A stretch of 33,367 nt of DNA, taken from the NCBI GenBank assembly GCA_947036995.1, contig CAMQTD010000009.1, positions 1-33,367 of the forward strand, read 5' to 3'. The number at the start of each line of letters is the position of its first letter. Position 1 is the stretch's first letter. Both the position numbers and the translations under genes were made by a program. The DNA comes from an uncultured Parabacteroides sp. Its GTDB lineage: Bacteria > Bacteroidota > Bacteroidia > Bacteroidales > Tannerellaceae. The notes under the pieces were generated by a model. The model was given only the letters and a program-made list of their open reading frames with translations, was not told the DNA's origin and ran no database searches. This document shows positions 25,570-26,438 of this stretch, in pieces.

Positions 25570-25642
25570 GGTGCCATAGCTCAGTTGGTAGAGCAAAGGA
25601 CTGAAAATCCTTGTGTCCCTAGTTCGATTCTTGGTGGCACCA
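25570..25642 (+). tRNA. tRNA-Phe (anticodon GAA)
   Basis: 73-nt cloverleaf: acceptor GGTGCCA/TGGCACC, D arm GCTC/GAGC, anticodon stem AAGGA/TCCTT with loop CTGAAAA (anticodon GAA), T arm CCTAG-TTCGATT-CTTGG, discriminator A73. CCA is not encoded. All stems pair well. A strong terminator follows within 5 nt. Confidence 0.97.
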
Positions 25643-25646
25643 CAAG

Positions 25647-25723: not shown

Positions 25724-25747
25724 TGTGTAAACTAGTGTGTAAACCAG
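25724..25747 (+). repeat. 12-bp tandem duplication
   Basis: TGTGTAAACTAG (25724-25735) is immediately followed by TGTGTAAACCAG (25736-25747), one mismatch. A related GGTGTAAACC occurs at 25978-25987 in the palindrome array. The function is unknown. Confidence 0.7.
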
Positions 25748-25828: not shown

Positions 25829-25851
25829 CTATGGTTAAACTATAACCATAG
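25829..25851. repeat. Inverted repeat, 9-bp arms
   Basis: CTATGGTTA (25829-25837) and TAACCATAG (25843-25851) are exact complements with a 5-nt spacer. There is no T run, so it is more like an operator or stem-loop than a terminator. Confidence 0.6.
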
Positions 25852-25922
25852 CGTAATAAAGTACTAGCCTAAAATGTCGAGGCACGCTGTAAAAATAGCA
25901 TTACATAATAACTTATGTTGTG

Positions 25923-26006
25923 GCACATCTGGGTCTCAGCATACCTGACACCCGGGTCTCAAGGCGCTGACACCCGGGTGTAAACCCCTCTTCCACCCGG
26001 GTGTCA
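25923..26006. repeat. Array of four CCCGGG-centred near-palindromes spaced 22-23 bp
   Basis: Four 16-bp units fit the palindrome TGACACCC/GGGTGTCA. Unit 2 (25946-25961) and unit 3 (25968-25983) match 15 of 16 positions; unit 4 (25991-26006) matches 13 or more with a perfect right half; unit 1 (25923-25938) is degenerate on the left but matches 7 of 8 on the right. Centres are at 25930.5, 25953.5, 25975.5 and 25998.5. Spacers are 6-7 bp and differ. Units 3 and 4 also form a perfect 15-bp inverted repeat (25966-25980 with 25994-26008). The regular phase suggests a protein-binding array on one DNA face; an alternative is an extragenic palindromic repeat. The GC-rich composition stands out from the AT-rich surroundings. 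Confidence 0.75.
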
Positions 26007-26013
26007 GCAATAA

Positions 26014-26049
26014 TAGGACGGTACTTTTTTTATAAAAAGCACCGTCCTA
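26014..26049 (+). other. Strong stem-loop after the palindrome array
   Basis: TAGGACGGT (26014-26022) pairs with ACCGTCCTA (26041-26049); after one A-C mismatch the stem continues with C-G and five T-A pairs, closing on a loop near TTAT (26030-26033). Right of it is AATTGTTTTAT, only a weak T run. It may be a terminator or part of a small RNA; no promoter match was found beside it. Confidence 0.6.
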
Positions 26050-26155: not shown

Positions 26156-26199
26156 AGTGATAGAGGAGTGATAGAGAAGTGATAGTAAAGTGATAGAAA
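26156..26199 (+). repeat. 11-bp direct repeat array, AGTGATAG x4
   Basis: AGTGATAG occurs at 26156, 26167, 26178 and 26189, exactly 11 bp apart, with variable 3-bp tails (AGG, AGA, TAA, AAA). Read as 7-bp GTGATAG units with 4-bp A/G-rich spacers, this has the geometry of PhoB/OmpR-type boxes, where response regulator subunits bind head to tail, one per 11 bp. Two further copies (26253 and 26261, 8 bp apart) and an inverted copy, CTCTATCAC (26126-26134), flank it; the inverted copy can pair with 26157-26165. It lies about 370-410 bp upstream of the exporter ATPase. Simple replication slippage is an alternative. Confidence 0.75.
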
Positions 26200-26252
26200 A
26201 AATGTTAACGGAAATTTACATCTGTCTAGTAGTGAGTGGATTAAGGAAAAGT

Positions 26253-26268
26253 AGTGATAGAGTGATAG
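26253..26268 (+). repeat. Two further AGTGATAG copies
   Basis: AGTGATAG at 26253-26260 and 26261-26268, directly abutting (8-bp period), 57 bp after the last copy of the 11-bp array, followed by AGGAATTG. Confidence 0.7.
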
Positions 26269-26438
26269 AGGAATTGAAAAACACACACTAGGAGGGTTAC
26301 CACGCTGGACAAAAAAAGGGGGTATATTACGCTGTTTGCGATAGCATGAGATTAAAAATTAGAATCATTTTGTAGGGATTAATAAGTGTAGCACTGTTAT
26401 TATTAAAGATAAGTCTGTTAATTTAATGTAATTACAAG

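Follow-up and report, generated by a model that had tools for sequence, protein, structure and literature searches.

Why does a gap between genes of an uncultured Parabacteroides carry four similar, GC-rich, near-palindromic units at almost constant pitch, and which protein may they serve? The window analysed here covers positions 1 to 33,367 of contig CAMQTD010000009.1. The array is a candidate binding platform for a protein of the HU-HIG family, and plausibly one site of a dispersed network including the promoter of the protein itself. Judging from sequence comparisons, we set the probability of this reading at about 0.72.

The array in the window

The array begins 280 bp past the end of a tRNA-Phe gene (25570-25643), and the start codon of an ABC transporter ATPase gene lies 560 bp beyond it. 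Coordinates are collected in Table 1. The positions of the 16-bp units confirm the phasing reported in the initial annotation, and the description of a GC-rich block in an AT-rich gap is likewise accurate, the G+C content being 62% in the array and 31-32% in the flanks. The units had been called near-palindromic, which holds for units 2 to 4, but unit 1 is weak. Summed over the four units, 23 of 32 pairs are complementary, against a mean of 20.8 and a maximum of 23 in a Markov null over 33 kb. Palindromy by itself is within chance for 33 kb; what exceeds chance is that one sequence recurs at a fixed pitch. The spacers had been described as unrelated stretches of 6-7 bp. The length is correct, but letters such as ACCCCTC or AGGCGC are common to several arrays, and the lack of relationship stands only in part. 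No Rfam family comes near its gathering score at the array. A little past the tRNA-Phe gene, at 25724-25747, TGTGTAAACYAG occurs twice, 12 bp apart.

Table 1. Array, companion module and neighbouring features in the window
Feature	Positions	Strand	Sequence and remarks	Basis
Whole array	25923..26006	.	four units, 23/22/23 bp pitch (start to start); candidate HU-HIG platform	
Unit 1	25923..25938	.	GCACATCTGGGTCTCA, degenerate, 3/8 pairs	
Unit 2	25946..25961	.	TGACACCCGGGTCTCA, 7/8 pairs	
Unit 3	25968..25983	.	TGACACCCGGGTGTAA, 7/8 pairs	
Unit 4	25991..26006	.	TTCCACCCGGGTGTCA, 6/8 pairs	
Terminator-like hairpin	26014..26049	.	16 pairs, adjoins array; minus-strand score, pointing toward array	
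Companion module, part one	26156..26196	+	four AGTGATAG repeats, exact 11-bp pitch	
Companion module, part two	26253..26283	+	AGTGATAGAGTGATAGAGGAATTGAAAA, conserved between loci	
Possible left end of composite	25850..25858	.	AGCGTAATA, tentative	closing helix in predicted fold
Possible right end of composite	26325..26333	.	TATTACGCT, complement of left end, tentative	predicted fold

Dispersed copies in the same genome

The assembly to which the window belongs (G000; 2.59 Mb, 226 contigs, 80% complete) was scanned for further copies. The pair pattern ACCCGGGT-N12-17-ACCCGGGT has 25 matches per strand, and the reversed control none; the pattern is its own reverse complement, hence the equal count on both strands. 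About ten arrays of the window type are found, on contigs C9 (the window), C16, C23, C37, C38, C76, C94, C121, C129 and C210, at a pitch of 22-23 bp, and the control pattern gives no array. Four units are present in seven of the ten, three in two, and two in the remaining one. The count is a lower bound, since some arrays lie near contig ends. All are intergenic, and their neighbours are unrelated housekeeping genes in every orientation. The C121 array was flagged as lying inside a gene by the script because of an overlapping mechanical reading frame; the two real genes closest to it are 252 and 387 bp off. Some arrays lie 80-250 bp ahead of start codons.

This distribution does not fit the local chance duplication considered at first, equivalent arrays being found also in relatives, nor a single local repressor operator or iteron. 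The iteron of a replicon is rejected because it would occupy one locus adjoining a replication initiator gene, in contrast to about ten loci beside housekeeping genes. The initial annotation had opposed to its own reading a palindrome scattered over many unrelated gaps with irregular spacing: the gaps are indeed unrelated, but the pitch is regular.

Arrays in relatives and across Bacteroidales

In five Tannerellaceae relatives (G023, G024, G121, G122 and G123) related palindromes recur at exactly 22 bp, mostly in four units, so that the search of related genomes advised at the outset did find equivalent arrays. By a count made by eye, exactly four units are present in roughly four fifths of the arrays. 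The self-identity at lag 22 reaches into both flanks, being 0.33-0.37 in the relatives versus about 0.23-0.30 at other lags; in G000 it is 0.31, and lag 23 is raised there too. In one relative, CTAAC motifs face inward at -8, -30, -52 and -74. The TAACTGA heptamer repeats (PMC4679880) resemble this flank motif but are contiguous, and were taken as unrelated.

A Bacteroides finegoldii replicon (NZ_OY725909.1), labelled plasmid yet carrying pta, acetate kinase and radC genes, hosts four copies of the palindrome of the window at 23-bp pitch, some 110 bp ahead of radC. In Parabacteroides distasonis, the gene of WP_008779936.1, located between mutL and rpsL, is preceded by four TTTCAC..GTGAAA-like palindromes at 22 bp pitch (z 5.5), ending about 55 bp before the start. 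Genomes from other families of the order, G154, G147 and G153, also have HU-HIG genes preceded by 22-bp arrays, although most other HU-HIG genes tested in these genomes have no such array. An order-wide scan of 393 sampled genomes with strict window-type patterns gave matches in the genome of the window only. The scan bears on the palindrome sequence, not on the architecture, and at least one carrier escaped the sample, since B. finegoldii has the palindrome of the window. Phage sequences gave no match to the array. A generic three-unit pattern had 19 matches in IMG/VR, set aside because, judged from sequence alone, they resemble unrelated tandem repeats.

HU-HIG genes beside arrays

An all-against-all comparison of the proteins encoded next to arrays revealed HU-like proteins beside arrays in four genomes. 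By Pfam they are HU-HIG proteins (PF18291) of the HU/IHF superfamily, a family in which an HU domain is fused to a wHTH, Ig or glycine-rich motif. Six genomes contain 8 to 20 HU-HIG matches each. Four of six array-bearing genomes have an HU-HIG gene with an array 42-82 bp away on its start-codon side; where arrays precede HU-HIG genes, about 40-110 bp separate the end of the array from the start codon. The initial annotation had noticed no obvious partner in the window, and the candidate was indeed found outside it: on contig C210 of G000 a window-type array (68-151) is followed after 42 bp by an HU-HIG gene (194-583), encoding a 129-aa protein with a weak match to IHF beta in PDB (8flj, E 0.003). 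Since an array of the same type precedes its gene, this putative HU-HIG protein is proposed as the most likely partner. Another partner may be missing, because the assembly is 80% complete.

The association is also seen from the gene side. The DNA upstream of 75 HU-HIG genes from six genomes was scored at lag 22 among lags 15-32, and z >= 5 was obtained for 18, including a broken gene (G024:C103) whose start is undefined and whose value is unsafe. Among proteins of at least 190 aa, 12 of 14 reach z >= 5 and all 14 reach z >= 3, whereas only 4 of 47 proteins of 110-189 aa reach z >= 5, most having no array. Control upstream regions reach z 5 in 3 of 228 cases. The three exceptions are one HU-HIG gene and array-flanking genes of G044, array sites which the first scan had missed, and setting them aside leaves 0 of 225; this reclassification was made after seeing the cases, so the raw count is kept alongside, and the contrast stands either way. 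The four starting HU-HIG cases were reached via arrays, and so do not count as independent; the search from the gene side yielded most of the others.

The C210 gene scores only 2.0 at lag 22, because the pitch of its array mixes 22 and 23. Most array-bearing HU-HIG proteins carry a C-terminal winged helix, but both the C210 protein and its G023 counterpart (139 aa) are devoid of it, and sequence reading by a winged helix therefore cannot be general. Structure prediction of one HU-HIG protein, run with no alignment, was uninformative (mean pLDDT 39).

Palindromes vary with the proteins

Paralogous HU-HIG genes are preceded by different palindromes, among them TACAACCNNGGTTGTA at G000:C6, the TTTTTGACT type at G023:C96 and the GATCAC..GTGATC type at G121:C26. 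The more alike two proteins are, the more alike their palindromes tend to be (Mantel r = 0.25, p = 0.0004, n=25), also among pairs of less than 60% identity (p = 0.003). In a tree of 73 HU domains the presence of an array is clustered, requiring 10 changes versus 21.0 after shuffling, with none of 500 shuffles as low; many forks of the tree are weak, and C210 was labelled as lacking an array though it has one, as the mixed 22/23 pitch escapes the lag-22 test. One pair counts against the proposed matching: G154:C16 (L240) and G154:C151 (L239) have HU domains 91% identical and dissimilar upstream palindromes, which would place specificity in the C-terminal domain.

If HU-HIG genes mark families of arrays, the palindrome of another paralog should also be dispersed. 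This prediction was borne out: the palindrome that precedes paralogs C6 and C171 is present in about 15 dispersed G000 arrays. A generic pattern detects 34 triples in G000 (control 0), most belonging to this second family, which carries GATC in the spacers, has nearly always four units, and includes the two arrays beside the C6 and C171 genes. A few of the triples belong to a third palindrome type, TCACC..GGTGA, which forms four-unit 22-bp arrays at C24:13010 and C30:12525 of G000 and has no assigned HU-HIG gene. G023 too hosts a second dispersed family, TCACCCGGGTGGAACG, on contigs C13, C31, C57, C88, C89 and others; no partner was found for it in that assembly, which is 54% complete.

Mobile DNA, RNA hairpins or operators

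Dispersed, intergenic copies are also what a mobile non-coding repeat of the MITE or REP type would leave, and according to this alternative the proximity to HU-HIG genes is incidental. Larger composite units exist. A GTGATAG module, made of four copies at 11-bp pitch, two at 8 bp and a conserved tail, occurs in the window (26156-26283) and on contigs C16, C23, C94, C121, C129, C3, C62 and C194. It stands behind six window-type arrays, with AGTGATAG starting about 145-150 bp past the array end, and three more copies are cut off by contig ends. The composite copies of G000 have short, tentatively assigned complementary ends, and a comparable repeat-bearing MITE, BrickBuilt, is present in Porphyromonas gingivalis (PMC4596501). 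Yet no Y1 transposase domain was found in G000 (80% complete) or G023 (54% complete), the fixation of unit number at four in diverged sequences is untypical of recent transposition, and both the HU-HIG association and the co-variation of palindrome and protein would need a separate cause. Transposition as the whole explanation is thus unlikely. As six array copies of G000 share the larger GTGATAG composite, a mobile origin could nonetheless coexist with protein binding.

A role at the RNA level, with a long hairpin acting in either direction as a transcription terminator or to protect mRNA ends, appears more improbable still. Several arrays do fold as long nested hairpins, and C37 is a near-perfect 40-bp hairpin with runs of A and T outside. 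The composite of the window folds better than its shuffles (z -5.8 on the plus, -9.4 on the minus strand), and the arms of one copy are somewhat more complementary to each other than to those of other copies (p 0.03 and 0.01). However, palindromic units fold regardless of function, the sequence of the units is conserved and not their pairing alone, and arrays occur in all gene orientations, those before HU-HIG genes stopping about 40-110 bp short of the start codon. Copy-specific complementarity is weak overall, and absent in G023 (p 0.54), and for this reason the long-hairpin reading, attractive for C37, C76 and C210, was set aside.

Least probable of all is a conventional operator array, through which a transcription factor unrelated to HU-HIG would control adjacent genes, in the window those of the ABC transporter operon: the palindromes are phased and some arrays lie 80-250 bp before start codons, but the neighbours have no evident theme, orientation shows no preference, and in the window 560 bp separate the array from the next start codon.

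How HU-HIG proteins may use the arrays

The initial annotation had proposed a dimeric protein bound repeatedly. This is the reading which best agrees with the data, with a candidate partner now located, but not in the form of one local operator. We infer that HU-HIG dimers would occupy the palindromes one after another, at intervals of about two helical turns, and might build on each array one compact complex; its size would be fixed, because four units are the rule. The array ahead of the gene of the protein itself suggests that the latter may be autoregulated. The copies dispersed in intergenic regions could serve mainly to organise or insulate the chromosome, and less as the operators of a classical regulon. 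The arrays may act in chromosome architecture or in regulation, and the lack of a shared theme among the genes next to them favours an architectural role.

The other HU-HIG paralogs, associated with different palindromes in the same architecture, may represent several parallel protein-array sets within one genome. Bacteroidales might then possess several mutually distinct sets of HU-superfamily proteins that recognise specific sequences, every set with dispersed four-palindrome arrays of its own and with one array before the gene of the protein. Such sets would amount to private addresses by which the chromosome is folded or partitioned. This broader proposal is tentative, and we would give it somewhat less than even odds.

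Comparison with known systems

HU proteins are textbook non-specific DNA packers. The arrays and the HU-HIG genes, each protein with a palindrome of its own, suggest so far undescribed protein-and-site pairs: the genes found beside arrays match a known family, and the four-palindrome arrays are newly proposed as its putative sites. Neither a binding site or target for HU-HIG nor arrays of this kind were found in the literature searched, in which coverage of subscription journals is partial. HU-HIG paralogs are abundant in these genomes. With a defined and predictable site next to the gene, direct tests of what they recognise, where they act and what they do become feasible, also in the human gut species P. 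distasonis and B. finegoldii.

Palindromic sites for one protein are scattered over the chromosome also in the matS/MatP, Noc and parS/ParB systems. These are single sites, while the present loci are four-fold phased arrays, with several parallel sets per genome. REPs and BIMEs, associated with RAYT transposases, are intergenic palindromes in many copies. They differ from the arrays, which show a regular 22-bp phase and four units, and an assignment to this class was rejected on the absence of a Y1 transposase from the two assemblies searched.

The nearest published likeness found is the BrickBuilt MITE of P. gingivalis, intergenic, with 19 dispersed copies made of 23-nt repeats and able to form stem-loops (PMC4596501). 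One copy, BrickBuilt_14, adjoins a gene whose annotated product is a DNA-binding protein of the HU family, PF00216 (PMC4596501, Table 1), possibly by coincidence. The arrays share with BrickBuilt the occurrence in Bacteroidales, the intergenic and dispersed location, and the stem-loops. The IS5-like ends of BrickBuilt were not seen at the arrays, and the two are set apart by description, not by brick sequence. BrickBuilt consists of 1 to 23 tandem repeats with no spacers, whereas the arrays contain mostly exactly four palindromes separated by variable spacers of 6-7 nt, and in this respect do not match the BrickBuilt type.
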